Positions 26,349-60,723 of a stretch of 64,000 bases of DNA are shown here, one piece after another (the first letter of the stretch is position 1; the number at the start of each line of letters is the position of its first letter). The notes under the pieces were generated by a model, which searched no databases, had not been told where the DNA came from, and saw only the letters and a program-made list of their open reading frames with translations. The stretch is from Streptococcus oralis (GTDB lineage Bacteria; Bacillota; Bacilli; Lactobacillales; Streptococcaceae). The DNA is taken from positions 1,213,501 to 1,277,500 of the forward strand of contig NZ_CP046524.1 of assembly GCF_021497945.1 (NCBI RefSeq). Reading direction: 5' to 3'. The position numbers and the translations under genes were made by a program.

Positions 26349-26372
26349 GTTTGTGTCTATTCTTTTGAGGTA
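26349..26372 (+). repeat. Left terminal inverted repeat of the ICE
   Basis: Begins GTTTGTGTCTA and ends TTTTGAGGTA. It differs from the reverse complement of the right end at positions 3, 4, 12 and 14. Confidence 0.88.
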
Positions 26373-26400
26373 GTAAAAAAATACATCAAAAACGGAAATA

Positions 26401-26438
26401 TCAAAACAAGGCTAAACAATTTTACTTGCTCAGCCTTG
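26401..26438 (-). terminator. Outward terminator near the left ICE end
   Basis: CAAGGCT / AGCCTTG stem (26407-26413, 26432-26438) followed on the minus strand by TTTTGATATTT. It would stop transcripts leaving the transposase gene before they reach the rplS promoter. Confidence 0.6.
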
Positions 26439-26470
26439 ACATCTACTAAAATTTCTGATAGTATTAATCT

Positions 26471-26534
26471 TACTGATAAACAAGCACCAATTGTTTATCT
26501 TTATGAGAGGTACGTTGCTGCGTGCCTCTTTTTA
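26471..26534 (+). ncRNA. Candidate small RNA at the left ICE end
   Basis: Plus strand, opposite to nearly all element genes. A promoter-like TTGACA (26436-26441) and TAGTAT (26459-26464, 17 bp spacer) precede a perfect 9 bp hairpin GATAAACAA / TTGTTTATC (26475-26499), then the hairpin AGAGGTACG / CGTGCCTCT (26506-26529) followed by TTTTT. The whole unit is about 62 nt. No open frame. It could regulate transposase expression or simply insulate the end. Confidence 0.45.
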
Positions 26535-26598
26535 ATTATAAGAATATTATACACTATTTCTTCCTGTAAGTCAAGAGTTTAAACCGTTTTGAAGCATA

Positions 26599-27993
26599 CT
26601 ATCTATTTATTTTTTTCCCTACAAAACGTTGTTTATCTCTCTGCTTTCGCCCCTTCCAAGAAGCATTTACAATCGTTCCTAAACTCCTTGGAGCTTGATT
26701 AATCTTTTTTCGTACTTTTGCACTGCTCATTCCTTCTGAGTGGTATTTTTCATATTCATTTCTCCAATTACCAAAAAATAAATCTCGGAGTTCTTGATTG
26801 TAAGACAGCAAAATAAGATGGGACATCGCATCGGCATGGTTTAATGACCAATACATCCCTCTATTTTTCATTCGGTAACTGATTTTACGATGCTGACTTT
26901 CCATAATTCCTAAACTTGCTGTATCTAGATTCCTCTGTTCAGGAGGTTGTGTATATTTAAAATTTCCAAGGATTCTATTCTTAAAAACCTTAAAAGTATC
27001 AATCTTCTTTTCGTTCTGATTAAGTAGGACGAATGATTCTAGTGTATCAATAGTTGTTTTCAGTTTCTTCTTGCAATGGCTATCTATGGCTTTCATAAAT
27101 TGCTCTAGTAGCTCTACAGAATACGGTTTGACCAACTTTTTTATTTCTTTGTTTAGATGGTATCGATCCCAAAAATGTTGATGATGCTTTATCCCTAGAT
27201 CGTGTGATATTTCCTTAAATAAATGTGGAGTATATCCGTGACCCATATCTGAGTTTGTCACAAGTAGAGTATCTGACGTAATTTTAAAATGATTATAAAT
27301 ATAATCTACTACTCTTTTTCTTGCTGTTCGATTATTGGGTGACACAATTTCGACCTTATTTTTTAAAATTTTCCTCTTTCCGTACACCTCCGTTCCGGTA
27401 TGGATGACAAAATGAGATAACTCTTTATTCTGTTGTTCTTTTTCACGTCCACTGACCTTTATCCAGACACCGTCTCCTTCAAGATAAATAACAGGAGCCT
27501 CAATTTTTTTGACAGGTACTTCATCGCTATAGAAACGATAATCTTCTTTTTCATTTAACAATTGACTTGCTAGTTTAATCGCTTTTAACACCGTGTCTTT
27601 AGTGATATAAACCTGGTACATCAGTTCAATAACTTCCACTACTTTCCGATACGGTAACATTGTAGCTAGTTTAGTGATTTGATACAGCAGTTCTTTGGAA
27701 TAGGCAATACGTTTCTCCAAACCTAACTTCTCATCTACTGGAATCCTGCATTTTCCATTCTTATACCAGCGCCTTCTTGAAAAAGTTACCTGGCCAAACG
27801 TAAAAGTAACGGTTCTCTCAGCATAGTTTACAAATTTGTAACCTCTAGCTCTCATTGTGGGAGCAATATAGTTGTCATAGTCACTTACAAATTTATGAAA
27901 TCCTTGTAGATTTTTCTCTTTAAATTTCTCTACAAATTCTCTTTCATCAATAATTTTTGTATCCAAAATAAAAACACTCCCAACTAAAATCAT
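26599..27993 (-). CDS. ISLre2-family (TnGBS-type) DDE transposase
   Basis: Excision and insertion enzyme of the element. The 464-residue protein belongs to the UPF0236/ISLre2 branch of the Mutator superfamily. Candidate catalytic residues are D174 (YLEGDGVW), D249 (TNSDMGHG) and E365 (GIMESQHRKISYR), with the D/C-x2-H signature WDRYH (275-279) between the second Asp and the Glu. The N-terminus (about 60-85) carries the family block FGQVTFSRRRWYKNG. It is the gene closest to the left terminus, as in TnGBS elements. No flanking IS ends exist inside the element, so it mobilises the whole ICE, not itself alone. Confidence 0.9.
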   Translation of the reverse strand: MILVGSVFILDTKIIDEREFVEKFKEKNLQGFHKFVSDYDNYIAPTMRARGYKFVNYAERTVTFTFGQVTFSRRRWYKNGKCRIPVDEKLGLEKRIAYSKELLYQITKLATMLPYRKVVEVIELMYQVYITKDTVLKAIKLASQLLNEKEDYRFYSDEVPVKKIEAPVIYLEGDGVWIKVSGREKEQQNKELSHFVIHTGTEVYGKRKILKNKVEIVSPNNRTARKRVVDYIYNHFKITSDTLLVTNSDMGHGYTPHLFKEISHDLGIKHHQHFWDRYHLNKEIKKLVKPYSVELLEQFMKAIDSHCKKKLKTTIDTLESFVLLNQNEKKIDTFKVFKNRILGNFKYTQPPEQRNLDTASLGIMESQHRKISYRMKNRGMYWSLNHADAMSHLILLSYNQELRDLFFGNWRNEYEKYHSEGMSSAKVRKKINQAPRSLGTIVNASWKGRKQRDKQRFVGKKINR

Positions 27994-28049
27994 AATAAAA
28001 AGTATAGAGATTTTAGTTCAGGAGTTCAAATGTTTTTTGTCAGAAAAGA

Positions 28050-28076
28050 TAAAAGCCTTCCCTTATTGGGAAGGCT
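28050..28076. terminator. Terminator between partition and transposase genes
   Basis: AGCCTTCCC / GGGAAGGCT stem with T-rich DNA on both sides (minus: TTTTATCTTTT). It ends the par operon. Confidence 0.75.
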
Positions 28077-28081
28077 GTTTG

Positions 28082-28110
28082 ATTATAAATACAATTATAT
28101 TTATAATTAT
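28082..28110. repeat. AT-rich partition repeat, site 1
   Basis: Repeats of ATAATTATATTTATAATTAT type overlapping the 3' end of the ribbon-helix-helix gene. Related clusters occur at 28348-28402 and 29373-29428. Candidate centromere (parS) for the encoded partition pair. Confidence 0.45.
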
Positions 28111-28334
28111 AGTGATAAACTTTCGATTAGTTTATCAAGGTAATCTGATGCAGACTTTGCGCCGGCTGCTTTAGCAATTTCATCCAATTTTTTCCGATTG
28201 CTTGGTTTCAAAGTAAACTGAAATTGTTTCTTACGTTCAAAACTTTCAAAGCTAGCTACATCTGAAAGTTGCTCAGGTTGATGAGTTGCTTCAATAATCT
28301 GCGAAATCTCTTTTTCTTTTGGTGTGAATGCCAT
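28107..28334 (-). CDS. Small ribbon-helix-helix partition protein (ParB-analogue), probable
   Basis: A 75-residue protein whose C-terminal half (KKQFQFTLKPSNRKKLDEIAKAAGAKSASDYLDKLIESL) matches ribbon-helix-helix DNA-binding proteins, with the beta strand FQFTLK followed by two helices. Encoded 52 bp downstream of parA, it occupies the place of the centromere-binding partner in plasmid partition modules. AT repeats on both sides of the gene are its likely sites. Confidence 0.7.
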   Translation of the reverse strand: MAFTPKEKEISQIIEATHQPEQLSDVASFESFERKKQFQFTLKPSNRKKLDEIAKAAGAKSASDYLDKLIESLSL

Positions 28335-28347: not shown

Positions 28348-28402
28348 TAATTATATTTATAATTGTATTTGTGTTTATAAATATAATTATATTGTATCAT
28401 AA
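28348..28402. repeat. AT-rich partition repeat, site 2
   Basis: Between and overlapping the two par genes: TAATTATATTTATAATTG followed by TTATAAATATAATTATATTG. Palindromic TATAATTATA-like units recur. Confidence 0.45.
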
Positions 28403-29193
28403 ATTTTTGAAAAAGTCTGCTCCAACTCAATGAAAAACTTTTTGTGTTTTTGATAAAGCTCAGGATTCTCCTTCATATCTGCAATAGAGATCTTATCAAT
28501 CGTGGAATGATTGAATAACTCTTTTGCTGGTACGATGCCTAGAAGGTTGTCTGTTCCCTTCTCTTTAGCTTCAAGTCCCAGGGCTTCCAGTAACTCTCTT
28601 GATGACCCATAGTTTGGTCGGATCATATTTGCTAAGAAATATAACTCAGCAGTAATGTATGATTCCCTTGTGCGATAGTCAATTACATCCTTTCTGAATG
28701 CTTCTAACCGAGTTGATAGATTGAATTTGGCATTATAACCAAACTCTGAAGGAGTCAAGGGACTAATAATAGCGTGACTGACCGCAACAGCATTTTTAGT
28801 AGCTGTCGCAAAGTCTGGTCTGCAATCAATCAAGATATAGTCAAACTGATCCAACTTTTTCTTTTCGTAGTTATCCTCTAGCCAAAGATAAAGTAACATA
28901 TTTTTTTTATCGCTGTTCTCCAGATCTCGTTCCACCGTATCAAGCTGAACTGAACCTGGAATTAAACTGATATTTTCCTTGACTTGCTTAATATCCACAT
29001 CGCCTCCTTTAAAAGCATTGGCAATTGTATTCTTGCTCTCATAGATATTGTAGCACTGAGTCAAATTACACTGATGATCTAGATCAATCAAAAGCACTTT
29101 ATGACCTTTCTTGGCAAGCCATTCAGCATAATTAAAAGTTAAAGTTGTTTTCCCAACACCGCCCTTAATAGCGGCAAATGTAATAATTTTCAT
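28387..29193 (-). CDS. ParA-family partition ATPase
   Basis: A 268-residue deviant Walker ATPase starting MKIITFAAIKGGVGKTTL, with the signature lysine in KGGVGKTT (residues 10-17), Walker A' VLLIDLDHQCNLT and ILIDCRPDFATATKNA. It segregates circular or replicating DNA by dynamic binding to the nucleoid, fitting an ICE with a plasmid replicon. The ATG at 29193 follows GGAG and overlaps the stop of the small zinc protein by 1-4 bp (ATGA). Confidence 0.9.
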   Translation of the reverse strand: MKIITFAAIKGGVGKTTLTFNYAEWLAKKGHKVLLIDLDHQCNLTQCYNIYESKNTIANAFKGGDVDIKQVKENISLIPGSVQLDTVERDLENSDKKNMLLYLWLEDNYEKKKLDQFDYILIDCRPDFATATKNAVAVSHAIISPLTPSEFGYNAKFNLSTRLEAFRKDVIDYRTRESYITAELYFLANMIRPNYGSSRELLEALGLEAKEKGTDNLLGIVPAKELFNHSTIDKISIADMKENPELYQKHKKFFIELEQTFSKIYDTI

Positions 29194-29336
29194 TCTATTT
29201 CTCCATTCCATCCGTAATAGCAATGGCTACACATTGTTTCTTCTTCATCTATCCACCAACAAGCTCCTTCGTCAGGAGTATAGCAAGCATTGTTCCAAGT
29301 GCAACCGCAAATTTTGCAATGAGATTCTTCTGCCAT
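29190..29336 (-). CDS. Small zinc-binding protein, 48 aa
   Basis: ATG at 29336-29334, stop overlapping the parA start (ATGA). The translation contains CKICGCTW, AC, ACWWID and MCSHCYYGW: two Cys pairs plus extra Cys/His that could bind zinc. The same pattern heads the 153-residue protein at 60121-60582 at the other end of the element (CRRCSCNW ... PCWWVD ... LCSHCFYGF). A GGAGATAG-like ribosome site precedes it. Function unknown; too short for routine gene callers. Confidence 0.65.
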   Translation of the reverse strand: MAEESHCKICGCTWNNACYTPDEGACWWIDEEETMCSHCYYGWNGEIE

Positions 29337-29372: not shown

Positions 29373-29428
29373 TACCATTATAATTATATTTGTCAATATG
29401 TTTATAATTATATTTATAATTATTTTTT
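29373..29428. repeat. AT-rich partition repeat, site 3
   Basis: CATTATAATTATATTTG and TTATAATTATATTTATAATTA, upstream of the zinc-protein/parA genes, where the par promoter should lie. Probably both operator and centromere. Confidence 0.45.
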
Positions 29429-31104
29429 TACAATGAAGTTTCTCTATCCTTACGCTGCTCCACATTTTTCTCAATGTCTTGATGTAACTTATAATCTTTT
29501 GTAATTGCTTCTACTCGTTGATACAAAGCCTGACGCTCAAAAGTCGCCTCCTTAACAAGTTTATCAATCTCAGCTTTGCGAGTGCTAGGATCTACTCTCA
29601 AATCTTTCAAAATAGAAACAGCTAGTTTAACTTCCTGAGGATCGCTCGATTCCAATGCAAGAAATGCAGACTGAATTTTATTAAGCTCACCCAAGCGTTG
29701 ATCTAATTTATCAAGCAAATTATCTACTTCTTCTAGTTCCTCTTCAAAACGATTTAACAATTCATCAAATTGCTGTCCTTCTGTCACTCCATGAGCAGAT
29801 AGATAATTATATTCACGAACAAGCTGATCCAAACTGGAGATTTTCGGATTTTTCCGGACAATCATTTCTCCGTTATCATACGACAACTGAGAAGCGACTG
29901 TTTCTCCTTTCATGTATCGATTCTTATCAGCGTGTTCAGGATTAACAAAATAGTAGAAGTCATTCTTTCTGATAAAAATTTCATAAGAGCCATCTTCTGC
30001 TTTTTCAATCTGATGAGCTGGAATAAGAATGGTTCCCTTATTTCTAATCCCAAATTCCATTTCAAGATAGATTCCATTTTTTGTTTCTTCCATCACCTGC
30101 CATTCTTCAACTGTGATTCTCATTTCAAAATCATCTTCTCGTTCTGCTACCATTTTTTCATATTCGGATTTAATTTCATCGACAGAAAAAGTCACCTCGT
30201 TAGCAACCACTCTCTCAGAAATTTTCTCTAAAGAATAATTTCCTTTTTTGGACAGTGTACGATCCCTAACATTTCTTGTTTGTTCCTGATCAGTTAAACG
30301 ATATTTTATTTCCTTTCCTGAAGTATCAACTACAAGATTTAATGCTTGAGCCTTCGATTTGAAATCTTCTAATGAGGTTGAATGTTTTAAAAGGAAATCT
30401 AAACGAGATTTAATCTCATAGCGAAAAGAATTTTTTTTGCGATAGGCATGATAGGTTTTTCGATTAGTCCATAATCGCTCTTTAAGAATTTTAGCTCCAG
30501 CTAAATCCGCATACTTATCTGAAATATTCTCTAAACTTTTTTTCGTTCCTTTCTGCCAGCGAAATTTATTTAAGGTTACAGAATTAGTAGAATTGAAAAT
30601 GATGTGGTTATGAATGTGCCCCTTATCCATGTGTGTTGCAATGACAAATTCATGTTGACCACCAGTCAATTCTAAAATTGTTTTACGACCAATCTCATGA
30701 ATTTCTTGTGGAGTCAAATCATCTTCAGGCGAAAATGATTGGATGATATGATGAGCCAAAACTCGATTCGGATTTTGAATATCCGATAATTCCTTTGTTC
30801 CTGCTCGCTGAGCTGCATTCTTTTTGGTCAAAAGAAATTCTTCTGTCGCCGTGCTAGCATCTGTAATTCCATAAGTAGATACAAGTTGCTTGACTACTCG
30901 ACCATCTTTAACCACTGCTGGAAATTCAAGCTGTTCATCTTGTTCTAAGAAACTCGTTTTAGATGGATTCTCGATATAGCGTAAAGCATTATTTAAACTT
31001 TTTGTATCAGTCAGCTCGACCGTCTTTGCTTCATCCTCAATATATTTTGTAGATCGTCCTAAAGAAGCCACTCCTTTTATCTGCAACACTTTTGTTACAA
31101 CCAT
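29428..31104 (-). CDS. Relaxase (MobA/PcfG-like, MOBP-type)
   Basis: Nicks oriT and pilots the transferred strand. The 558-residue protein has the relaxase core in the first 210 residues, with the metal-binding three-histidine motif HMDKGHIHNHIIF (H158, H163, H165). An N-terminal Tyr (Y21 or Y43) is the probable nucleophile. The C-terminal 250 residues are helical and charged (coiled coil near the end). It overlaps mobC by 10 bp. In pCF10 the equivalent pair is PcfF-PcfG. Confidence 0.88.
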   Translation of the reverse strand: MVVTKVLQIKGVASLGRSTKYIEDEAKTVELTDTKSLNNALRYIENPSKTSFLEQDEQLEFPAVVKDGRVVKQLVSTYGITDASTATEEFLLTKKNAAQRAGTKELSDIQNPNRVLAHHIIQSFSPEDDLTPQEIHEIGRKTILELTGGQHEFVIATHMDKGHIHNHIIFNSTNSVTLNKFRWQKGTKKSLENISDKYADLAGAKILKERLWTNRKTYHAYRKKNSFRYEIKSRLDFLLKHSTSLEDFKSKAQALNLVVDTSGKEIKYRLTDQEQTRNVRDRTLSKKGNYSLEKISERVVANEVTFSVDEIKSEYEKMVAEREDDFEMRITVEEWQVMEETKNGIYLEMEFGIRNKGTILIPAHQIEKAEDGSYEIFIRKNDFYYFVNPEHADKNRYMKGETVASQLSYDNGEMIVRKNPKISSLDQLVREYNYLSAHGVTEGQQFDELLNRFEEELEEVDNLLDKLDQRLGELNKIQSAFLALESSDPQEVKLAVSILKDLRVDPSTRKAEIDKLVKEATFERQALYQRVEAITKDYKLHQDIEKNVEQRKDRETSL

Positions 31105-31463
31105 CGCTCTTGTTCCTTTGTTTGATTTTCCTGTTTTTGGATAAATTGATTGACGGTATCTTTCAGATGTTTTTGCAATTCAAGAATCTGACTCAATTCA
31201 TTGAGACTAGCTTGATTATCTTCGTTTACCTTTTTTGCAACCTGATTAATATTGACCCCTATCCGATTTATTTCTTTACGCAGTTCTCTCAATTCTTCAA
31301 AATTTAAGATTTTGACCTCGCCCATAATCAACATAATTCGGGCAAAGGCATTAAAATTTGTCATTCCAGATTCTGCAACTTTAGTTGAAATAAACCGTGC
31401 CTCTTCTTCCGTCAAACGAATTTTTTTCTGAATCATTCGCTTTCGTTTTTCTCCATTTTTCAA
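31095..31463 (-). CDS. MobC/PcfF-like relaxosome accessory protein
   Basis: A 122-residue protein with a ribbon-helix-helix start (IQKKIRLTEEEARFISTKVAESGMTNFNAFARIMLIMG) and the MobC core LRELRKEINRIGVNINQVAKKVNE (about residues 60-83). It binds oriT and helps load the relaxase. It lies between the probable oriT and the relaxase gene. Confidence 0.87.
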   Translation of the reverse strand: MKNGEKRKRMIQKKIRLTEEEARFISTKVAESGMTNFNAFARIMLIMGEVKILNFEELRELRKEINRIGVNINQVAKKVNEDNQASLNELSQILELQKHLKDTVNQFIQKQENQTKEQERWL

Positions 31464-31499
31464 AAATCATCACCTCTGTTCTGCTATTTCTTGATTGAG

Positions 31500-32043: not shown

Positions 32044-35000
32044 TTAGTGAGGGCTGCTCAGGGACTTTTTTTCTTCCACCTGCTTTACAGCCTCCGCCTT
32101 TTGATTACCCAACTGCTCAGATTTTTCTTTTGCCTGTTGGAGTTTATCAGCAAACTTATCTTTCGTTACGCTTTTATTTTTCACCAGTTCTAACTTAGCA
32201 TCCATTCGGTCAATCAAACTTTTTGCTTCCTTCTGAACAATCTGCAGTTGTTCCACCATATCTTCAAAACCATTTTTATCTTTCGCCCAAATAGCCAAAT
32301 ATCCAAAACTGTAACTACTCGTATCAAAACCAAAATGATTAGCTACGACATAGGCTACACTTTCAGCTTGTAATTCTTGCTTACGATATTGGTCGTCCCC
32401 ATATTGGGCATTAGTTCCTCTGTGTAAATCTGAGTGAGCCATTTCATGAAAAATTGTTTTTAGAATATGTTCTTGCCCCTTTAATCCTTTTGAAATGACA
32501 ATTCGATTTTCATCTGGAGAGTAATAACCATTTGCGCTTTCTCTTTTAATATCTTCAAAACTGATAGGAACCTGATTATCCATCGAAACTGCTTTGGCTG
32601 CTCGATATAAATCTTCATAATCTTTAACAGAACCAGTCAATTCATTAATTGCTTTTGGCAATTCTTTTCCTTCTGTTTGAGAAACATCGAAGACATTCCC
32701 TAATTTGAATCGAGTCACAGTGACTTCCTTCTCTTCCATTCCATTCTCAGACGGAGAAAAACTCAACTCATTTTGATTAGCAGAAATCTTAGTTTTTACT
32801 TGATACGGAACCCAAATTTTCAGAGCTTTAGAACCTTTTTTGACTGTTCTTTCAAAATCCGTTTTCCATTTATTAAAACTTGCGACTTGGGAAACATTAG
32901 GATTCTGCATCTTCAGCAAATGAATATTGTTGAGGGAGTAGTTATGAAACTTACTCATCGTATCCAAGAAAGATTTAAACTGTTCTGAATCCAAATAGTT
33001 CTTCATTCCCTCTTTCAAGTGTTCAGCTAAACCTTTTGTATCTTTATTTGCGACCAACTGGGAAATGGTTTGTTCCGAATTTTTAGTAGCAATTTCTTCG
33101 ATAATAATAGCACCTGCAGCTACTTCGGCATCTGTCCTTCTTTCTCGATCTTCCTGCTTTTTATGAAGGTTAGAAGCAGCATTGTATGGATCTGTTCCTT
33201 GCAACATCTCATCAGAATTAGAAATACCATCACCATCCAAATCACGATCCCTCTCATCTTTTCGGTTATACTGATAAATTTTTTCGTATGGATTATCTGG
33301 TGTATTCTGCGAATTCTTGACTTGTGCTTTTTCAAATTCATCCCGAATGTTTTCGATGGTTTGTTCACTCGCCAATTTCTCCATATGATACTGATTGAAT
33401 AATGCCCCATCTATCTTCATCAACTCTGGATGCTCTCGCATTTCTCGTGTTCCAAGTCTCTCTTTGTGAGCGATTGGGTTAATCTCGTCCCCAATATCGT
33501 AACGAATGCCATCCTGAATCAGTTCACCATCAGGAGCGTAGATACTAAACTGGATCTTAGTTGGAGAGATGTAGGCTTCTGGGTGACCACTAGTTACTTG
33601 TTGTAGCCCTTCCTGATGTAGCTGATAGAAGCTCTGATTGGCCTTATATAGTTCCTTAGCAAAATCTTGATAAGATATCAGCTCTGTTTCTTTAAATGGC
33701 AATTTAGGCCCATCTGGGCGCTCTTCAGCCCATTGAAGCCGTACATGGTAGTTCTCCTTATAGATATAATCTTGTTTCCATTCTTTATAAAAATCTGAAT
33801 TTGTATCTAAAAGATGATCTTCTCCAGCTGCAGCAACAATCTGATCAAATTTATCATTGTACTGCTCCGCATAGTCAAGATACTGATTCCAGGCTTGATG
33901 AAATTCTTCTGGAGTTTTTGAGATGTCACCTGGCACACCTACATTATAGACAGTATCTAAGACTTGAGTAAACGTAGCTGAATCAAGTGAGATTTTATTC
34001 AATGTGTTCTTTGGAGCAATCTGTTCAATTTCTTTAGTTGCATCAGGTTGGATTTCCTCAAACAAGCCATTTTTCATAATGGATTGCAATTCTTTGCCCC
34101 CATCCTTAATATAGTCCTCATTGATCGATAGCTGTTCAATGTGGCCATTACGTTCACGGAATACAGCAAGAATAGGAGTTTTATCTGCCGTCTCCAGTTC
34201 TTTGACCAGTCTTGCTCTAGATTGAAATACTGATACTGGAATGTAATTTTCTTCTTCCAGCTCTTTAAACAGTAAAATAATATCTTTATCATCAGACTTT
34301 ATAAGGCTGTCAAAGCGCCCATTATATCGTCTAAGATTAGTTAAATCATCAAAATAGAAAGAGGTACTTTCTGTTGCGACTGAAAGATCTGACAGGACGT
34401 TGATTTTGTCAAAAGCCGCATCATTGTTAGCCAAAAGAATATTATCAAAGTGCCCGTTTCCTTCTGCAAAATCACGTAAAGTTTTTTCAGGTGTCTGCCC
34501 TGGTGCAAGTGGCTTGATCCCCGTCAAGTGCATGAAGTGTTTTTCTTCAAAATTTACTTGTACAGTCTTATCAGGAGTGACATAATAAATCTTAGAGTTA
34601 GCCAATTCAGCCAAATAATACTGCGCTGCATTCTGAATAGTTTGACTACGAATTGGACGATTCAATTTAGCTAATTCATGCGAGGAAATAGAATGATAGT
34701 GGCCATCGTTACTTGACTGAAACTCTTCATTTATGGTAAAATATAATAAATGAGAGGATAACGTAGGACGACTGGTAACAGAGCGTTCAAAGGTACCAAC
34801 TTCTGGTACGGGTGTGGGACTGCCTTCAGCCCTGGGCTGTAAAAACCCCTGACTACCATTGGTCCTCTCATTTTTTTGATACTCTGAATTCACATTTTGC
34901 TCTTGAGACTTCCCAAGGGCTTTTTCTGTGCTCTGATTTTCTTCCAGTGCTTCATAAGTATCTCCAAGAGGATTGGAAGGTTTTTCAAAGGTTACTGTTT

Positions 35001-47667: not shown

Positions 47668-47983
47668 CTTTCGTATACATTCCTACCTTTCTAAATTCTG
47701 TCTCATAGGTTCTTTGTTGGATCCGGAAAAAGAAATCGATTTTTTCTTTAATCCGCATTCGCTTGGTCATGCCTGTACCGTACATTGCCCCAGGAACTAC
47801 AAATAGAGCATCCCAAAGATAAATGTACCAATCAGGTAAACCAAAGAAATATATCGTAATTGTCCCTGAGACAGCTATTATCAAACATACGTAGAGAACA
47901 ATCATTCTACCTGTTAATCCAAATAAAATTGGTCTGTCCTCGGTTTCAAATTCTCTTAAAAATTCTGATCCAATTTTTTTCAA
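47609..47983 (-). CDS. VirB3/PrgI-like membrane protein
   Basis: A 124-residue protein with two membrane helices (about 27-48 and 54-72) and a long basic C-terminal tail. Starts with a cytosolic EFETEDRPILFGLTGRMI segment typical of PrgI-family proteins encoded just before VirB4. Its last 19 codons overlap the virB4 start region. Confidence 0.82.
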   Translation of the reverse strand: MKKIGSEFLREFETEDRPILFGLTGRMIVLYVCLIIAVSGTITIYFFGLPDWYIYLWDALFVVPGAMYGTGMTKRMRIKEKIDFFFRIQQRTYETEFRKVGMYTKDEFIQKQKRKTRKSRKEKN

Positions 47984-48039: not shown

Positions 48040-48789
48040 TTACACTCCTAAAAGTTGCTTAGCTTTTCGACTGGTTCCAACAAGTGTAAAGATGTATATA
48101 ACACCTTTAGCGATTGAAGCCAATGCTGTTCCCCAACTTCCACTAGATCCTGCCGCAACTTTTAACATATCTGTAGTGACTAAACCGTTATATACAACAG
48201 ATACCACAATTAGAACAACTCCAATAAAGGCAGAAGCAGCAAAGTATTTCAGGAAGTTAATCGTAACAGAGCGTAAGGAATCCATCATAAAGAACGTCAC
48301 TAATAATGGAGCCAAGGCTTTGAGCATATACAAATCTAAATATCGTAAGAAGATGATGATTCCCAGCGTAATATTAGCAATAAATTCAGTTAAACCGCCA
48401 ACTAGACCAAAAATCAGTTTTTCAAACCAGCCTTTGACCGCCCCTTGCGCATATTGATATTTATCAAGTTGTGAGGGTACTACATGGGCAATTACCTTCA
48501 CGACAATATTAAGCAATTCCAGAATGGCATCACAAATTTGGGATGAGGCCGAAATCAAGATGAAAGCAAATAAATACTTCATCAATGCCTCTAGCCAAAT
48601 CTTCTGCGTTAGCGCACCTCCCCTCGACTTGACCATTTGTGACCATGATGCCATTTCAAACCAGAAAAAAAGACCTAAAAGGATATACCCAATAGGTCGG
48701 ACAGCATTGGCCATCATGGTTACAGCTTGGTTAGTATCAAAACTGTAACTGGAAAGAGAGCTAGTCAACTCTCTAATATCTAAATTCAT
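48040..48789 (-). CDS. VirB6/PrgH-like polytopic T4SS protein
   Basis: A 249-residue membrane protein with about five to six hydrophobic segments, including IGYILLGLFFWFEM, FGLVGGLTEFIANITLGIIIFL and the LKALAPLLVTFFMMDSLRS segment typical of VirB6/TrbL-like proteins. It should form the inner core of the translocation channel. Between the VirB2-like and VirB3-like genes, as in pCF10. Confidence 0.82.
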   Translation of the reverse strand: MNLDIRELTSSLSSYSFDTNQAVTMMANAVRPIGYILLGLFFWFEMASWSQMVKSRGGALTQKIWLEALMKYLFAFILISASSQICDAILELLNIVVKVIAHVVPSQLDKYQYAQGAVKGWFEKLIFGLVGGLTEFIANITLGIIIFLRYLDLYMLKALAPLLVTFFMMDSLRSVTINFLKYFAASAFIGVVLIVVSVVYNGLVTTDMLKVAAGSSGSWGTALASIAKGVIYIFTLVGTSRKAKQLLGV

Positions 48790-52600: not shown

Positions 52601-53905
52601 TTTAACTTTATTCCACCAAACATTCAAACGAGTATAAGTTGAAGGGTTGCCTGCAATTTTATGCTCTGGTATAGGATTATTACGAGCCACAAATCTTGCA
52701 GAAATTGTTTTTCCCGTTTTTGTTTTACCAACATTATGTAAAGTGAAGGTAGAACCTTGTTTGATACCCGTAACTACATAACCACCATAGGTTCCCTTAG
52801 AATCAGAGTGACCATAGAAATCTTTATTTTCTAATCTGTCATGCTGTAAATCTTTATCGAGGGTCATAGTTGTGTTTTTATTAGCAGCTAAAACACCATC
52901 CACAACTTCCAATTCTGGATTGGCATCGAATACTGCTGTTAACTTAGAATAGTAATCCAATGAGCCACGTTTCGACTCATCAAATTCACCATAGATTGTG
53001 ACACCGTTAGCACGACCTTGGACTCGTTGTGTTTGTAACTCTGCCAATTTACGTTTATATTCAGCTGAGTCTTTTTCATACTGAGCTAATTGCTCTTTGT
53101 ATTTTGTTAAGTCAGCCTCAGACTTACCTTTTTCAATAGTCCACTGTTTTAAAGCTTCTTCGTAAGCTTTCTTGGCAGCTGCGTTTTCCTTATCAATAGC
53201 AGCGTCTTTATTAGCTTTTTCTTTTACTGCTTTTTCATAAGTAGACTTAGCAAGAGCGTTTTCTTGTTTGATAAGCTCATTCTCTTTTGCTACACGCTCT
53301 CTCTTATCTTTTAAGCGCTCATTCTTTTCTTGATTTTCTTTATCAATCTGAGCGTTTTTAGTAGTAGCATCTGCTAAGTCTTTCTCATACTGAGCTTTAG
53401 CTTTGTCATAAGAGTCTTGCTTTTCCTGGTTCTCAGTAGTAATCGTTTTAATCTCTTCTTTACGAGTTTCTACTTCTTTTTTGTACTTCTCAGACTCGTC
53501 TACAATAGTAGTTGCTTGCTTGTCGTAACTAGACTCAATCTCAGCAGTTTTCTTAGCTAACTCTTCTGAATTAGCAATTAAACCACCATCAACCACAGTC
53601 TCCTTAACAGTCAAGCCAGCTTTCTTTGCAGTGGATACCGCAGACTCTACCTTAGCACGATCCACAGTCACCTCAACAGAACCTGTTGATTTCCCTGCAC
53701 TACCTTGATCATTTTTAGACTCCGTAGTTGGAGAATCTTGCAAAGGTTTTGCATTTGTAGCAGGATTTGGATTTACTCGTTCATCTGCTCTAACTGGACT
53801 AGTTATCAAACCCAGGGCAGCTAGACCAAGAATTACTCCACATGTTCCCCATTGTCGTGTTTTTCGGATTGATCCGAATGCTCGTGTCTCATTATTGAAT
53901 TTCAT
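49601..53905 (-). CDS. Antigen I/II-family LPXTG adhesin (PrgB-like)
   Basis: A 1434-residue wall-anchored adhesin. Signal peptide 1-41 (a GSIRK-type variant), coiled-coil A-like region (about 115-295), V/GbpC-like domain (about 300-625, GVTIYGEF to FAFQLWGG), proline-rich stalk (about 629-700), several C-terminal isopeptide-type domains (about 700-1395) and LPSTG at 1399-1403 with a membrane segment and basic tail. Two C-terminal domains are tandem homologues (each with NYYK/RxTxDYxQYKGI, DDYPEEAVTIN and NTAYQxDFG). Start at 53905 has AAAGGAG. PrgB of pCF10, with the same architecture, promotes donor-recipient aggregation; same role inferred. Confidence 0.9.
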   Translation of the reverse strand: MKFNNETRAFGSIRKTRQWGTCGVILGLAALGLITSPVRADERVNPNPATNAKPLQDSPTTESKNDQGSAGKSTGSVEVTVDRAKVESAVSTAKKAGLTVKETVVDGGLIANSEELAKKTAEIESSYDKQATTIVDESEKYKKEVETRKEEIKTITTENQEKQDSYDKAKAQYEKDLADATTKNAQIDKENQEKNERLKDKRERVAKENELIKQENALAKSTYEKAVKEKANKDAAIDKENAAAKKAYEEALKQWTIEKGKSEADLTKYKEQLAQYEKDSAEYKRKLAELQTQRVQGRANGVTIYGEFDESKRGSLDYYSKLTAVFDANPELEVVDGVLAANKNTTMTLDKDLQHDRLENKDFYGHSDSKGTYGGYVVTGIKQGSTFTLHNVGKTKTGKTISARFVARNNPIPEHKIAGNPSTYTRLNVWWNKVKTDTETSSVNFNPYNYFNVEWDIHYYDEKTGKPIDLGSVSFYSDLDFGQAVRHTYGDGNTGTVINPSGSSVKETTVNGKNYWMGVKSDGVYKKDDPSGLNLYKAGDPYYTDVDDYNSIPEGSVVSAGHGSVQHLTYLHYGDKPFSTYTESQSASYRKYWNDERRANGQPEDNDDEIFSSGFAFQLWGGRSVINQLEEPKPPLKPSESTKPRPLEPKYKEKDKTPLTPPTEKPLLASPKDEPDKPHVPIPSEPPTPDLKPVPNEVAPREIKVTYTRLKTTPTVEKLVKNSAGTNVNNSSVPKLSEVVWELKTKPLAANRKKTTIYELTDNLPQGYQLDLAKTVAQNSDFTITYDKAKHQLKGLLKSEGLAKVNLDLTKVFTAPVLKVYGTVTNDGATYKNNFRLNLNNEFESYSNIVKVTTPGKPNDPDNPNNNLIKPLKHNHNKDGVIIDGKTVLAGSTNYYRITLDYDQYKGIKAAPSAILKGFGAIDDYPEEAVTINKSDIRYIDSEGKEVSGISVYQYDSIESVDNDKVKAFLESSEIKPKGAFQVFLVDDPEAYFNKYIKAGKSVTIIDPMVTKEELRNTGKSFENTAYQVDFGNGYQTDTVVNNVPTVKPTKKNLNKEGVNIDGKQVLSGSVNYYKVTADYSQYKGIEVDKDRIGKGFYIVDDYPEEAVTINQDGVQVTDSKGQVVKGLRATIYESLDKAPVGVQESLKKQGFTPKGAIQVFEAENPEEFYKTYVQTGEVLTITNPMTVKKELGQTGGKYENTAYQIDFGMAYVTETVVNNVPKIEPKKDVVIDHLSKESLDGKEVKLNQTFNYKLVGSLIPKDRSEQLFEYKFSDDYDETHDDYQSVYKVFAAVDFETSDGQKFKAGDELTKFTSQVVDKAKGKVDISFDDAFLKSILETSEFQAEVYLQMTRIQSGTVENTYYHTVNGVEVVSNTVVTHTPEEPKTPEEHPQQPERSLPSTGEQASAELLLAGLAMGGAAAGLLYSKRKKKEA

Positions 53906-53940
53906 GATTTCTCCTTTAACTTTTAATATAGTATTCAATA

Positions 53941-54048: not shown

Positions 54049-56646
54049 TTAGTTTTCCTTAGATTCTCGTTTGATTTTCAACAAACTCAAAAGTGAAATA
54101 GTTACCATCCCCAAGAACCAAAGACTAGAAGTTTTTTCCCCTGTTTTAGGTAATTCGTATGTTGCAGCAGGTGCTTGATAGACTGGATTTTTCACTTCTG
54201 ATGCTTGATTTTCAACTTGATCTTGCACATACTTCACAATCTTACCATTTTGAAATACTGGAATCGGATGCCCTCCAGATCGCTCAATACTAGCTTTCTG
54301 AGCAGCCAATTTTTCTTGGCGCTCGATTTCCAGTTGTGCTTCCAGATAATCACGATAAGCCGACAACAACTCTTTATGAGCCTCCAATACCTTTCTTTGA
54401 CCTGCTTTCGCAGTTTCTAGTTTTGCTAGTGCTAACTCAAGAACTGATTTCTTTTCTTTCAAAACTTCTTGAGCAGCTTCTAGATTAACTTTAGCCTTTT
54501 CTAAGAGCTGAGGGGCATTCTTCAAAACTTCCACTCGCTCTTTTGATGCTTTTAAGGCTTTAGTTGATTCTGAAAGTAAGGTTTGACGATTGAGGACAAG
54601 TTCTTTAATTCGAGTAAGGTCACCTTGTTTAGCAATCAATGCCTCTTTCTCAGCAGTCAAAGCTTCATTCAGTGATTTCCTTTCAGTTTGTTTTTTAACT
54701 AGTTTATCTTTAGCTAACGCAAGTACTTCACGTTTGTTTTGTACGTCCGCATTCAACTGTTCCAAAGCCTCTTGCGCTTGTTTATTTTCTAAACCAGCTT
54801 TTTCAAGATTTTCTTCTGCCTGTTTCAATTTAGCTTTCGCTTCAGGAGTTTTTAAAGCAATATTCTGAATGGCTTTACGATTAGTCACCGCATTTTGCGC
54901 AGCAACTTCTGCTTGAGTATATTCTGTCTGTGCTTGTTTTTTTCTAGCTAGAGCATCTTTACGATTCGTTTTCGCAGTATCATAAGTATCCTGAGCTTGT
55001 GCCACAGAATTTCTAGCTACTTGAATTCTTTCCTGAAGACTAGCCAGATTGTTCTTAGTATCAACTTTAACATTTTGATGGAAATCATTTTTCAGCAAAT
55101 CAATTGTTTTAGAATCTGTTCCAACATAGTGCATCGCAATCAAACCAAGATCTGTCTTTCGGGTTGCTACACCGATATATTGTAGCGTGACTGACTTACG
55201 ATCTAGTCCTGCAAAGTTTAAAGCATGGCCCCAATCAGCATGTTTATCATAAAACAGCATCATAATCATGTTGTTGTATGCCTGTTGTTTCAGATCAGCT
55301 AATGTTACTACATCACCTGCATTTTGAAAGCCTATGTTTTCAGCAAGTAGGCCTTGATTCCCTTGATTCAAACCAACTTCTTTCGCAACTATATTCAAAG
55401 CATCTAGGTCATGGCCGTACTGATTAGTAGATAGTTGAGTTGCTTTCTGTGCCACTTTCTGCATATCACGATTCACTAAAACTGGAATATCATCTGTTCC
55501 CATCAATCTACGAAAATCATTGATCATATGCGCATTGAAAGCAGCAAGTTCATCTTGAACTTCAGCAGATAAATGATTGACATCAGTAATCACAGTCTTT
55601 TTATCTGCTTCACTCTGCTTAAATGGAGAAGTTGGATTGCCGTAATAAGTCTCACCACCATCTGGCGAACTAAAGCCAGCAGCAGTCATTCCTTTCTTGG
55701 CAATTTCTTGTAACTTATTTGAATTTTCTTCAGTGGGGTTATTGAAGTAAGCCTTTAAAGCTTCTACATAGCCAGCAGGATAAGTGATAGAGGTCGTTGT
55801 CAAACTATCCAGGATACTTTGAGCCTTAGATAGATTCTCTTTAGCTACTCGATACTGATTTTCAACGTTAGTAGCGTGAGTGGTTGCTTGATCTAGTTCC
55901 TCCGCTTTCACTAATCTAGTTGCTTCTGTAGTCGTTACTTCATCTTCTGCCTGTTTCAGTTTAGAAGCACGTTGATCATCTGCTTCTTTAGCGAGTAGCA
56001 AATCTTGTCGAGCTTGTGATTCGGCTTTTTCGCTCCTTTCTAAGTTTCGCTCAGCCGCTTCAGCGTTGGCAACAATGCCTGCAACTCCAGTTCCGTCTAA
56101 AATAGCCTGTTTTTCAGCTACAATTTGTTCTGCATCTGTAACTTCTTTTGTTTTGTCAGCAAGCTTTCTCGTAGCTTCTGTGACATTTGCTTCCTGATCA
56201 GTAACATTCTTTTCAGCTAGCTTTTGTTCCTCTTCAGCAGAGGACAGTTCTTCTTGAGCCTTCTTCTCAGCAGCCTCTTTTGCAGAGACATCTTCTTTTG
56301 CATCCTGGATATTTTTAGGAGTAGCTTCCTGGACAGCTTTCTCCGCTTGAGTAACAGCTTCTGTAGCTTCTTCTACTACTTTCTCTGCATCGTTTACCTC
56401 GTTTTGAGCTGTTTTTACAATCTCCTCCTGGGTTTTTACAACTGAGCTTGCCTGTTCCACATTTGCTTTGGAGATAACGATATCGGTTTCTGTAATTGTT
56501 TTTTGAGTTGCTGTCTTCTGTTGGCTCCCTGAAATTGGCTCTGCAGGCTTTACTTCTTCTGCGGAAGCCTGAGTCGTTACTCCAACCGCTGCGGTTGCAA
56601 TTGCGCTAGCCAACATAAATTTCTTAACTTCATTCATCATTTCCAT
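54049..56646 (-). CDS. SEC10/PgrA-type surface exclusion protein (PrgA-like)
   Basis: An 865-residue LPXTG protein. Signal peptide to about residue 30 (ending TTQASA), then a long Ala/Glu-rich coiled coil (about 50-290), a CAP (SCP-like) domain at about 360-520 (FNAHMINDFRRLMGTDDIPVL, NQYGHDLDAL, DWGHALNF), a second coiled coil (about 530-800) and LPKTG near 831-835. This coiled coil-CAP-coiled coil layout is that of Sec10/PrgA, which reduces redundant transfer into cells already carrying the element. It precedes the adhesin gene, as prgA precedes prgB. Confidence 0.9.
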   Translation of the reverse strand: MEMMNEVKKFMLASAIATAAVGVTTQASAEEVKPAEPISGSQQKTATQKTITETDIVISKANVEQASSVVKTQEEIVKTAQNEVNDAEKVVEEATEAVTQAEKAVQEATPKNIQDAKEDVSAKEAAEKKAQEELSSAEEEQKLAEKNVTDQEANVTEATRKLADKTKEVTDAEQIVAEKQAILDGTGVAGIVANAEAAERNLERSEKAESQARQDLLLAKEADDQRASKLKQAEDEVTTTEATRLVKAEELDQATTHATNVENQYRVAKENLSKAQSILDSLTTTSITYPAGYVEALKAYFNNPTEENSNKLQEIAKKGMTAAGFSSPDGGETYYGNPTSPFKQSEADKKTVITDVNHLSAEVQDELAAFNAHMINDFRRLMGTDDIPVLVNRDMQKVAQKATQLSTNQYGHDLDALNIVAKEVGLNQGNQGLLAENIGFQNAGDVVTLADLKQQAYNNMIMMLFYDKHADWGHALNFAGLDRKSVTLQYIGVATRKTDLGLIAMHYVGTDSKTIDLLKNDFHQNVKVDTKNNLASLQERIQVARNSVAQAQDTYDTAKTNRKDALARKKQAQTEYTQAEVAAQNAVTNRKAIQNIALKTPEAKAKLKQAEENLEKAGLENKQAQEALEQLNADVQNKREVLALAKDKLVKKQTERKSLNEALTAEKEALIAKQGDLTRIKELVLNRQTLLSESTKALKASKERVEVLKNAPQLLEKAKVNLEAAQEVLKEKKSVLELALAKLETAKAGQRKVLEAHKELLSAYRDYLEAQLEIERQEKLAAQKASIERSGGHPIPVFQNGKIVKYVQDQVENQASEVKNPVYQAPAATYELPKTGEKTSSLWFLGMVTISLLSLLKIKRESKEN

Positions 56647-57945: not shown

Positions 57946-58095
57946 TCATGATGAGAAAATTTGGCTGAGTTTCTCAGCTCTTTCTTTTTTCGGTAAATCA
58001 AAAACAGCTTTAGGAACCATGTAGATTTTCTCCTTCGGGCTACGACCTACCGTTAGCACTTTACCATCAATTGGTCTAAATTCATCTTTTAACAT
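57946..58095 (-). CDS. Small rep-operon protein, 49 aa
   Basis: ATG at 58095 overlaps the repA stop codon; TGA at 57946-57948. Sequence MLKDEFRPIDGKVLTVGRSP followed by a basic helical tail. GGGAG lies just upstream inside repA. Translational coupling to repA suggests a role with replication. No family recognised. Confidence 0.55.
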   Translation of the reverse strand: MLKDEFRPIDGKVLTVGRSPKEKIYMVPKAVFDLPKKERAEKLSQIFSS

Positions 58096-59231
58096 GTTTC
58101 AACTCCCTTAGACAATTCTGATAAATAGCTATTGAGTTTCGTCTCCGACAATTTATCTGGATAATAGTATGCAATCAGACCAGGGCACTCATCAGGGAAT
58201 TTTCTAGCGTGCTCACTTTGTCCTGATAGCTCCATAAATCCCTGTTCTTTTTCGATAAGTAGAGCCATTTTCCAGAAGCGAATCATCATTTTGTAGAAGT
58301 AGGCTGGGACATTCTGGATTGATTTTCCTTCAGCCTCTCCTGTTTTAATTTTGAAAATCAATTTATCAAGCTCACGTTCAAGATCTTGCAGCCAAACCTC
58401 TCCATAAATTTCCTGACCGGCTAAGAGGTTGTTGTAATTCTTCTCAACTTGACGTTTCGATTGATAGATTTTATTTTCAAGAATTTTTGCATCTTTTCCA
58501 AACATACTGAGTTTCTGAACTAGTTGAGGAGAAAGAAAACCATGTTGCCCCATTTTAAATGCTTCAGAAATTGATAAACCAGATAAAGATGACTCGCCCT
58601 CGTATCGATTAGTATCGTATGAGGACTCTGTCTGACTCCTCTCTGTATTTATTCCGTCCGTTTTATGGACGTTTTGAAGTCCATTTTGTGGACGTCCGTT
58701 TTGTGGACTTCCGCTATTACCGAGGGGTTTTGGTGTTTTTTCTATATCACACTCTTTTTCATAGAGAACTTTACCAAAAGCATCTATCCTCTTTAACAAC
58801 TCACCATCGATTGAATAGTGCTCCACTATTTCTAAATTAGCATCTACTAGCTGAAGATAAAGTCTGTTGGGTTTATTGAGGCCCTGCCTAACTTCTCGTA
58901 AGAGACCATGTTCTTGCAGTTCTTTCTTAATCTTGGTAACCTTCATCTTTCCCTTATCCAGTAACAACATCAAATCAGATACTGTAAAAATTAGAAAGAC
59001 TGCTCCGTTCTCATCAACGTAATCTCTATTTCCCTTCTGAAAAGAACTGATACTTAATTTACAACGATTATAGAGAGCGCCATATGCTAACTTGGCATCA
59101 GATGAAAGACCAGTATAGGAACTAGTCAATTTGATGTAGCCGTTCTCATTATGTTGAATACGAGTGAAAAAGATTTCTGGAATTTGATAAAAAGTTTGTG
59201 TTGATAGTTGATCAATCGTGATATCCGCCAT
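58089..59231 (-). CDS. repA: RepA_N-family replication initiator
   Basis: A 380-residue theta-replication initiator. The N-terminal RepA_N domain (about residues 12-120) includes FYQIPEIFFT, YTGLSSDAKLAYGALYNRCKLS and the winged-helix stretch LLDKGKMKVTKIKKELQEHGLL. The middle (about 165-195, SPQNGRPQNGLQNVHKTDGI) is encoded by iterons, and the C-terminal domain (about 260-370) is host-range-type. RepA_N initiators drive large plasmids such as pCF10 and pAD1, and occur in TnGBS elements, allowing autonomous replication after excision. Starts by 1 bp overlap with the upstream small gene. Confidence 0.9.
   Translation of the reverse strand: MADITIDQLSTQTFYQIPEIFFTRIQHNENGYIKLTSSYTGLSSDAKLAYGALYNRCKLSISSFQKGNRDYVDENGAVFLIFTVSDLMLLLDKGKMKVTKIKKELQEHGLLREVRQGLNKPNRLYLQLVDANLEIVEHYSIDGELLKRIDAFGKVLYEKECDIEKTPKPLGNSGSPQNGRPQNGLQNVHKTDGINTERSQTESSYDTNRYEGESSLSGLSISEAFKMGQHGFLSPQLVQKLSMFGKDAKILENKIYQSKRQVEKNYNNLLAGQEIYGEVWLQDLERELDKLIFKIKTGEAEGKSIQNVPAYFYKMMIRFWKMALLIEKEQGFMELSGQSEHARKFPDECPGLIAYYYPDKLSETKLNSYLSELSKGVETC
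58656..58708. repeat. Iterons inside repA: probable oriV
   Basis: Three 15 bp repeats of pattern GTCCRTTTTRTGGAC at 58656-58670, 58679-58693 and 58694-58708, each also an imperfect palindrome (GTCC...GGAC). Location within the central part of repA is the known origin position of RepA_N replicons. Confidence 0.8.
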
Positions 59232-59413
59232 TAAAATCCTCCTACAACTTGTAACCTCAAACCACCAGCATCAGGAAAATAGACAAGGTGGGACTTTTCT
59301 AATTCTTCAATAGCCGCCATAGCACGCTTTCTAGTCCATCCCATCGTCTTCATCAAGTCTAAAATCATTACGTCTCTAGTCAAACTTGAGACGTTTGTTT
59401 GGTGTTGCTTCAT
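59231..59413 (-). CDS. Small winged-helix-like protein, 60 aa
   Basis: Start MKQHQTNVSSLTRDVMILDL at 59413 behind AAAGGATC; the long upstream frame extension lies in the neighbouring gene. The sequence MKTMGWTRKRAMAAIEELEKSHLVYFPDAGGLRLQ reads as a helix-turn-helix with a wing. Its stop codon overlaps the repA start, so it is coupled to and may regulate repA. Confidence 0.65.
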   Translation of the reverse strand: MKQHQTNVSSLTRDVMILDLMKTMGWTRKRAMAAIEELEKSHLVYFPDAGGLRLQVVGGF

Positions 59414-59447
59414 ATGTGATCCTTTCTTTAAGTAAGCCACTTTATAT

Positions 59448-60119
59448 TCATACTTGTAGTAATTCTTCTGATAGCAAGCTAGTCTCTTTTGCGTTTTCAA
59501 AACCAGCAATATAGGCCTCATAATCAACGTCAACTTTAACATTAATGGTTCTATTATTTAAACTTCCCATGCGACGATGTTGTTCTTCCAAAACTTCTGC
59601 TGGGATTTTTACCATCAAACCAAATTCTTCTGATGATTGAGCCTGGTCCTGAAAACGTTGATCTATTCCGTTTAAGAAACCTAGTAAGTACGATTTCTTA
59701 TAGTCTTTCCATCTTGCTCTTGAGACTGTAGGGAAAAGTCGTTTCAGCCGATATTTAAGGTATAAGAGCGCACCTTCGTAAACCTTGCTACAAAATTCAG
59801 CATCAGATTGATATCCAAAGAAAATTATCTGTGTGATGCCGTCTTCAGGAAGTCGTCTTCTTATCGTTTTACATCTAAAATTTTCACCTAAAATACCTGC
59901 CAACTTTTCTTGCCACCATGGAAGTCTGTATTCCCATGTTCCTATTGTTTCACCAATATCTTTTTGAGTTTTACTATTCGTTAAATCATTCATAGAAAGA
60001 TTATGCTTCACCATAAGTCTTTGAGCCATCAGAAGGGCAGTCTGCCCCTCTTCATCGTTTGGTGCATCGTAAGCTAACTCTAAAAGATTTTGTATCTTCT
60101 CAATAATTTTATTATCCAT
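59448..60119 (-). CDS. DUF2786 protein
   Basis: A 223-residue protein with the N-terminal DUF2786 segment (MDNKIIEKIQNLLELAYDAPNDEEGQTALLMAQRLMVKHNLS), an unknown-function domain common in mobile elements, followed by a region with the histidine-poor EFCSKVYEGALLYLKYRLK stretch. Start at 60119 overlaps the end of the upstream zinc-protein gene. Function unknown. Confidence 0.75.
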   Translation of the reverse strand: MDNKIIEKIQNLLELAYDAPNDEEGQTALLMAQRLMVKHNLSMNDLTNSKTQKDIGETIGTWEYRLPWWQEKLAGILGENFRCKTIRRRLPEDGITQIIFFGYQSDAEFCSKVYEGALLYLKYRLKRLFPTVSRARWKDYKKSYLLGFLNGIDQRFQDQAQSSEEFGLMVKIPAEVLEEQHRRMGSLNNRTINVKVDVDYEAYIAGFENAKETSLLSEELLQV

Positions 60120-60120
60120 A

Positions 60121-60582
60121 TCAATCCACATGTTTATACTTTCTAGGCAAAGAACTAGCGTAATGTTTTGAATCATTGACCTTTGCATTATAAAAAATCA
60201 TATTATTCCCAATAATTTCTTGCCATTTAGGAATCTCCTCACGATAAATGCGATTAAGTCCATAAAAGTTCCTTACAATAAATCTAACGGCTCCAATATG
60301 ATCTCCTAAACCAACCACACACAACACATCATGTTCCATATCATATACCCAATGACTTTTTGAATTTGTCAGTATCTCCCAAGCAAATTCCCAATCTCTC
60401 TCAAGCCAATCATACCCTGGTCTGTAATAAACTTTTGTCTGACAAGATTCATCATTAAATCCATAAAAACAGTGGCTACACAGCGTTCTGTTTTTATCTA
60501 CCCACCAACAAGGACCATACTTTTCATTAATGCAAGGTGTAACCCAGTTGCAAGAACATCGTCTACAAATTCCAGTTTCCAC
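60121..60582 (-). CDS. Zinc-binding ICE protein, 153 aa
   Basis: GTG start at 60582 behind AAGGAGTAAAGC. The first 45 residues (CRRCSCNWVTPC, GPCWWVDKN, LCSHCFYG) carry two Cys pairs and a CWWVD motif shared with the 48 aa protein at 29190-29336 on the other end of the element. The remainder (about 55-153) is not recognised. First gene of the rep operon next to the right end. Confidence 0.7.
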   Translation of the reverse strand: METGICRRCSCNWVTPCINEKYGPCWWVDKNRTLCSHCFYGFNDESCQTKVYYRPGYDWLERDWEFAWEILTNSKSHWVYDMEHDVLCVVGLGDHIGAVRFIVRNFYGLNRIYREEIPKWQEIIGNNMIFYNAKVNDSKHYASSLPRKYKHVD

Positions 60583-60655
60583 GCTTTACTCCTTCCTACC
60601 TAGACATATCCATTACAATTTCAATATTATCTGACATTTTTTCTCCCAAAATACA

Positions 60656-60686
60656 AAAAAGAGCTAACGGAATTTTCCGTTAACTC
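60656..60686 (-). terminator. Inward-facing terminator at the right ICE end
   Basis: GAGTTAACGGAA / TTCCGTTAGCTC hairpin followed by TTTTTTG on the minus strand. It stops transcription running from the crcB operon into the element. Confidence 0.8.
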
Positions 60687-60699
60687 AATATTTTCTATT

Positions 60700-60723
60700 T
60701 ACCTCAAAACACTAGACACTTAC
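60700..60723 (-). repeat. Right terminal inverted repeat of the ICE
   Basis: Read on the minus strand it begins GTAAGTGTCTA and ends TTTTGAGGTA, 20/24 identical to the left end. It supplies the last six codons and the stop of the neighbouring crcB. Confidence 0.88.

Follow-up and report, generated by a model that had tools for sequence, protein, structure and literature searches.

We analysed a stretch of 64,000 nucleotides of the Streptococcus oralis contig NZ_CP046524.1 (positions 1,213,501 to 1,277,500; hereafter the window), in which an integrative and conjugative element (ICE) occupies positions 26349-60723 (34,375 bp) between rplS, the gene of ribosomal protein L19, and a gene of the CrcB family. 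Our comparisons make it very likely that this is a complete ICE of the TnGBS2 family whose transposase lineage inserts repeatedly and separately at the rplS promoter, with a preference that is tied to the transposase. A transposase lineage that is found almost always at the rplS promoter through repeated separate insertions is new as far as we searched the literature.

The limits of the element are unambiguous, because the exact 9-bp target duplication ATAGCAGAA occurs on the plus strand of the window only at 26340 and 60724; on the minus strand, a single copy lies at 31479. The left end at 26349 matches the reverse complement of 60700-60723 at 20 of 24 positions, and no other stretch of the window pairs as well with the left end in inverted orientation, the runner-up matching at 17/24. 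The ends at 26349 and 60723 had been proposed in an initial annotation made from the letters alone and are right (60724-60732 being the second copy of the duplication); the inverted repeats and the duplication that it described were likewise confirmed in the window. The features that define the insertion are the following.

25872..26219, minus strand: rplS (ribosomal protein L19, PF01245), the targeted gene, outside the element
26304..26332, minus strand: likely rplS promoter, with -35 TTTACT (26327-26332), a 17-bp spacer and -10 TAAACT (26304-26309); a consensus match, not mapped
26340..26348, no strand: left copy of the target-site duplication (ATAGCAGAA), identical to 60724-60732
26349..26372, no strand: terminal inverted repeat adjoining the rplS promoter (IRr in transposase orientation)
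26599..27993, minus strand: ISLre2 (p-MULT 3) DDE transposase (PF06782, E 5.3e-23; NCBIfam NF033529, 222.6 bits, cut-off 200)
60700..60723, no strand: terminal inverted repeat on the crcB side (IRl)
60704..61051, minus strand: CrcB-family gene (PF02537) on the other side of the element, its last 20 bp inside the element
60724..60732, no strand: right copy of the target-site duplication, identical to the left copy

Joining the flanks and keeping a single copy of the duplication gives a predicted empty site of 140 bp. From 117 genomes with the crcB flank, 30 loci were retrieved, one of which was the window itself; in the 29 relatives that were read (L048-L076), the predicted site was uninterrupted in 29/29, identical at 140/140 positions in three and at 129/140 or more in all. 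The relatives carry the empty site that the initial annotation expected from removal of the element, and not a different one. In the empty relative G115, 1.4 kb of the rplS-side flank are 100% identical to the window, and 1.9 kb of the crcB-side flank are 98.2-98.9% identical. The insertion at 26349-60723 is real and, since the empty site is intact in relatives and the flanks are near-identical to those of the empty G115, it is probably recent. The duplicated target reaches into the end of crcB, and the insertion changes the tail of the encoded protein from 109 amino acids (aa) in the predicted empty site to 115 aa, the last part of which is read from 20 bp of the element.

The element sits upstream of the likely sigma-A promoter of rplS, with its IRr towards the promoter; on the minus strand, 16 bp separate this end from the likely -35 box, TTTACT, which has the consensus base at only 4/6 positions. 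TnGBS and ISLre2 elements are described as inserting 15-17 bp upstream of the sigma-A -35 box with IRr facing the promoter (PMC3942029). To explain how the transposases find promoters, the same paper proposes that they touch the RNA polymerase initiation complex.

To see how often this site is used, we turned to 284 Streptococcus genomes, one genome per species, of which 79 carried a match to the transposase at E <= 1e-20 and seven, the window's genome included, a transposase at least 95% identical. Among public sequences, the 90% cluster of P0001, which is 97% identical, counts 1,083 members. The promoter-side junction was readable in six of these seven genomes (G000, the window's own genome, G109, G107, G124, G170 and G096), and in 6/6 the IRr lies upstream of rplS and crcB borders the opposite end. 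The survey was restricted to transposase copies that share contig and strand with a VirB4 match or, in draft assemblies, have one on a different contig; 56 transposases were hand-picked by this rule as ICE-borne and the junction was read in 51 of them, the unread ones being G068, G052a, G012 (contig ends), G270 (no end found) and G125 (masked bases). The best -35/-10 match begins 15-17 bp from IRr in 48 of the 51 junctions; for shuffled flanks, 6% begin at 15-18 bp. None of the other 45 of the 51 junctions is at rplS. On a tree built from 52 transposases, a single change among the labelled rows accounts for the rplS carriers (support 100/99), and the unlabelled G068, the seventh member of the lineage, falls inside the clade.

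The target duplications of the six rplS carriers, read by eye, speak for repeated arrival at this site. In the sense of rplS, they are TTCTGCTAT in G000, G109 and G096, ATTCTGTTGT, of 10 bp, in G107, and TTTTACTGT in G124 and G170. Both copies agree within every carrier element, and the sequence fits the spacer of the respective host group; TTTTACTGT is also present in the empty site of G068, which has some of the closest flanks to G124 and G170 in the comparison. Because the duplications are identical within elements and different between host groups, several of the insertions were independent; we conclude that the rplS promoter was hit separately at least three times and probably four times or more. 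At the DNA level, the carriers are 92-96% identical to the window in VirB4 and 93-96% in the transposase, which exceeds the identity of their crcB-side flanks.

The choice of site follows the transposase, and neither the host nor the conjugation genes. The elements G098, G139a and G228 have proteins very close to those of the window (relaxase 95-96%, coupling protein 94-95% and VirB4 97% identical) and a transposase of 51-52% identity; their RepA and LPXTG genes also differ from the window's. The four junctions of G098, G139a, G139b and G228 each lie at a different promoter, and the genomes G098, G139 and G228 have an empty rplS site. As very similar conjugation proteins accompanied by another transposase use various promoters, site specificity tracks the transposase. 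When the 51 junctions were clustered by transposase identity (>=88%), 14 clusters had two or more members. The rplS cluster was concordant in 6/6, and a second cluster lay at rpmB (L28, PF00830) in 6/7 junctions; the rpmB carriers, labelled asp23 in the tree run, also need one change in the transposase tree (100/100), with G113 inside the clade. Other ends were sought for ten elements and found for three; the other end was found in 3/6 rpmB copies, and their duplications differ (AAATCTTTC, AAGTCTTTC and AAAATCTTC). The sister of the rplS lineage, formed by G020 and G198, lies in 2/2 at rpsU (S21), again with different duplications (TTATGGCAG and TACAGAAGA, also read by eye). G059 and G060a have a common site before a gene read by eye as 16S rRNA, G190 and G193, from a three-member cluster, have a common other site, and the other nine clusters are fully discordant in target site. 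In G198 (L091, around 14448), an inverted repeat-like end stands beyond the duplication of the rpsU-site element, as if a second element lay at the same promoter.

With moderate confidence, we favour the broader view that transposase lineages of the TnGBS2 family have evolved locus specificity, one for rplS, one for rpmB and one for rpsU, with the determinant in the transposase or its ends; the DDE transposase would then act as a site-specific integrase yet make target duplications next to a ribosomal-protein promoter. The steps of such a cycle can be proposed from published work on the TnGBS family: the ISLre2-type DDE transposase would excise the element as a circle with abutting ends, RepA_N and ParA would replicate and maintain the circle, the MobP relaxase and the VirB/D4 machinery would carry a single strand into a recipient, and the circle would be inserted by the transposase upstream of a sigma-A promoter. 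We infer in addition that the transposase, or its pairing with the ends, may read a feature specific to the rplS promoter beyond the general promoter targeting of the family. If this is true, a DDE transposase would be behaving almost like a site-specific integrase, and TnGBS2-type ICEs in oral streptococci could be found by inspecting a few loci. One-promoter and many-promoter lineages in related hosts with similar conjugation proteins would amount to a natural experiment that separates the transposase from the host and the transfer machinery, and the contrast between lineages names proteins and targets for an in vitro test of promoter targeting.

Several observations weigh against this reading, at least in a strict form. 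The sampling comprised only one genome per species. In G068, the transposase is 95% identical and interrupted, the element lies elsewhere with its IRl adjoining other sequence, the genome's own rplS site is empty, and a search for the missing promoter-side end found nothing; this copy counts against absolute rplS specificity. G113 is the exception to the rpmB pattern. Where carriers have a duplication sequence in common, separate insertion cannot be proved for every one of them. The nearest 500 bp of the rplS flank are 95.8-98.4% identical between the window and the other carriers. The element is also a mosaic among carriers, with DNA identities to the window of 86-89% for the coupling protein, 78-88% for VirB6 and 79-89% for orf290; another RepA is present in three of the five other carriers, so that it is not the whole element that is more alike than the flanks. 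In the transposase itself, 27 residues lie between D249 and the D(2)H motif, against 11-19 in the published description.

Some of these observations are what one would expect if the element had transposed into rplS once and then spread among mitis-group streptococci by homologous recombination through the flanks, with no targeting preference at all. Mitis-group streptococci are naturally transformable. The mosaic of element genes, with its differing RepA types, the one duplication sequence common to three carriers and the similarity of the first 500 bp on the rplS side would all fit such a spread. The rplS side is nevertheless non-discriminating, because non-carriers score the same as carriers (95.6-98.6%, leaving aside the two closest). 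In the crcB flank, the first 500 bp of the window are 76.6-82.6% identical to the five other carriers and 98.2% to the empty G115, and the next 1.4 kb are 83.0-90.8% identical to the other carriers; identity therefore does not rise towards the element, and any flank imported on this side could only have been very short, the stretch in common being about 25 bp by eye. The duplications differ between host groups, and another transposase lineage in the same host group scatters over different promoters. We therefore regard spread through the flanks as unlikely and separate insertion as the better account of the shared site. The RepA (58089-59542 and its relatives) is 97% identical to the window's in G107 and 89% in G124, and 33-34% over one third of its length in G109, G096 and G170; the RepA types differ among the rplS carriers and the replicon therefore seems to have been exchanged as a module.

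That the element could be a decayed, immobile remnant with ends intact by chance is decidedly doubtful. The transposase of its relative G068 is broken; the main genes are, however, open in the window, and the exact duplication together with flanks 98-100% identical to those of an empty relative points to a recent insertion. The claim of the initial annotation that this is a full element holds in that the ends and the duplication are intact and the main genes open.

It is very improbable that the rplS promoter acts as a general insertion hot spot of these hosts, or as their sole tolerated site, regardless of transposase lineage. Ribosomal-protein and rRNA promoters do recur as targets among the 51 junctions (rplS in six, rpmB in six, rpsU in three and, by eye, the 16S rRNA gene in two), but 0/45 of the other junctions use rplS, and G047, G098, G129, G139 and G228 host other TnGBS-type elements while their rplS site is empty. 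A single old insertion that was passed on by descent within the mitis group and disappeared from most lineages is barely credible: all six carriers share the site and belong to related species, but the duplication copies are identical within elements, where old copies would have drifted apart, differ between host groups and fit the local empty site, one carrier has a 10-bp instead of a 9-bp duplication, and close relatives of carriers are empty (G115, with 98-100% flank identity to the window, and G068, with 96-97% to G170 on the crcB side). Vertical inheritance and flank recombination, both tried as causes of the shared site, were thus made unlikely by the comparisons of duplications and flanks.

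The element is, as judged from its genes and ends, a TnGBS2-family ICE and in this respect of a known kind. It resembles this family (ConjTnGBS2 conjugation module, Tn5252 superfamily) in its ISLre2-type DDE transposase (PF06782), MobP relaxase, VirD4, VirB4, RepA_N and ParA, in that no integrase was found, and in an IRr that adjoins a promoter, about 16 bp before its -35 box. The ends known from the family, with inverted repeats of 18-39 bp and duplications of 8-9 bp, are matched here by 24 bp (20/24) and an exact 9 bp, the relative G107 having 10 bp. The transposase, the ends, the placement, RepA_N/ParA and the domains of the conjugation proteins are all consistent with membership. The insertion sites of the family are described as diverse or of low specificity in passages of four papers (PMC3942029, PMC4701971, PMC7563491, PMC12479173), unlike the 6/6 readable junctions of the rplS lineage; membership stands despite this preference, since low locus specificity is a reported behaviour and not a defining gene. 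The initial annotation had recognised a TnGBS-like ICE with a type IV secretion system and a plasmid replicon in a mitis-group streptococcus, and both parts are borne out, the first by the MobP relaxase, VirD4/VirB4, RepA_N with ParA and TnGBS2-type conjugation genes and the second by the flanks and near-identical elements in S. mitis and relatives. Members of the family are expected to be more than 40% identical to it in relaxase, VirD4 and VirB4. With the genome G002, identity is 48% for the transposase and 54% for VirB4 in a partial match (residues 11-493). The VirB4 matches form a band of 52-62% identity, many of them with a transposase match nearby (seen by hand, uncounted), and, among the matches listed, another of 40-43%.

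Other known systems were compared as well. TnGBS1 elements have, according to the papers, a related transposase, promoter-upstream insertion and plasmid-like replication, but their relaxase is described as being without PF03432 (PMC7168690), which the relaxase here has. ISLre2 insertion sequences (p-MULT 3) have the same transposase family, 8-9 bp duplications and promoter targeting (PMC3942029), but are simple insertion sequences without conjugation or replication genes. The S. ruminicola CNU_G3 plasmid p1 (NZ_CP046625.1, 41,625 bp, circular) has a similar gene order, an ISLre2 transposase 48.3% identical, RepA, ParA, an SspB-related adhesin and a SEC10 protein, and its IRr and IRl abut with the spacer ATA (L205, 35455-36060), as expected of a circular form; unlike our element, it is deposited as a plasmid, and by analogy it may represent the circular form, which says nothing about the window's copy. 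Integrase-driven elements, such as ICEs at rplL, rpsI and rpmG and prophages of group B streptococci at the rplS 3' end, also reuse one ribosomal-protein locus (PMC7563491, PMC7168690, PMC7487436), but by integrases and mostly at gene 3' ends, unlike the DDE transposase that here acts upstream of a promoter and leaves a target duplication. For rplS in particular, use as a prophage site is described at the gene's 3' end (PMC7487436). TnGBS2 in S. mitis and S. oralis has already been reported (PMC6398412, citing Guerillot 2013). No literature joining TnGBS with rplS or rpmB was found in a search that did not extend to Guerillot 2013, the main paper on the family; near locus-specific transposase lineages look new.

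The gene content of the element was examined by a Pfam scan of a selection of 27 of its open reading frames (ORFs) and of crcB. All 27 scanned element genes are on the minus strand, and none of them is an integrase, in line with the initial annotation; the transposase at the left end, annotated as ISLre2-type, has the matches to PF06782 and, above the cut-off for ISLre2, to NF033529, and so does not fall outside the ISLre2/TnGBS group. Its candidate triad D174, D249 and E365 is conserved in 52/52, 52/52 and 51/51 alignment rows. A viral-contig search with the transposase found no relative. Apart from the transposase, the element carries the following.

28387..29223, minus strand: ParA-type partition ATPase (PF13614)
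29428..31104, minus strand: MobP-type relaxase (PF03432, E 1.8e-30; PF20874, PF11083)
31095..31463, minus strand: MobC/NikA-like accessory relaxosome protein (Pfam scan)
32044..37050, minus strand: large polyvalent protein of 1,668 aa with Toprim, PBECR4, ArdC-N and metallopeptidase-like domains
38422..40257, minus strand: VirD4-type coupling protein (PF02534, PF12696)
42588..45293, minus strand: VirB1-like cell-wall hydrolase (Phage_lysozyme2 and CHAP domains)
45304..47667, minus strand: VirB4 ATPase of the CD1110 family (NF045971, 960 bits, cut-off 325; P-loop_TraG)
47609..47983, minus strand: putative VirB3/PrgI-like protein, by position only (the VirB4 neighbour in NZ_CP046625.1 is annotated as PrgI family; no Pfam match)
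48040..48789, minus strand: VirB6/TrbL-like membrane protein, a weak match (18.1 bits, below the Pfam cut-off of 25.9)
49601..53938, minus strand: antigen I/II-type LPXTG adhesin, as cargo (PF17998, PF16364, PF18652, PF00746)
54049..56646, minus strand: surface protein of the SEC10/PgrA surface-exclusion type (TIGR04320, 257.4 bits, cut-off 70)
58089..59231, minus strand: RepA_N replication initiator (PF06970)
58655..58708, no strand: three 16-nt repeats (81-100% identity to the reference copy) within repA, as candidate origin iterons

We infer that the 16-nt repeats in repA may serve as origin iterons. PADLOC, run on eight ORFs, gave one weak match, to residues 4-100 of the 1,668-aa protein (RTasDnaG-like, 30.4 bits). 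Elsewhere in the same genome (G000:C1:711427-713733), a second VirB4, 41% identical, has a RepA_N match about 10 kb away (701605-701856) and possibly belongs to another ICE. Outside the element, near the end of the window, 63723-63926 (minus strand) encodes a C-terminal fragment of a phage-type tyrosine integrase (PF00589), and beyond rplS, at 23047-25275 (minus strand), lies the gene of a surface protein with a YSIRK signal and pectate-lyase/beta-helix domains.

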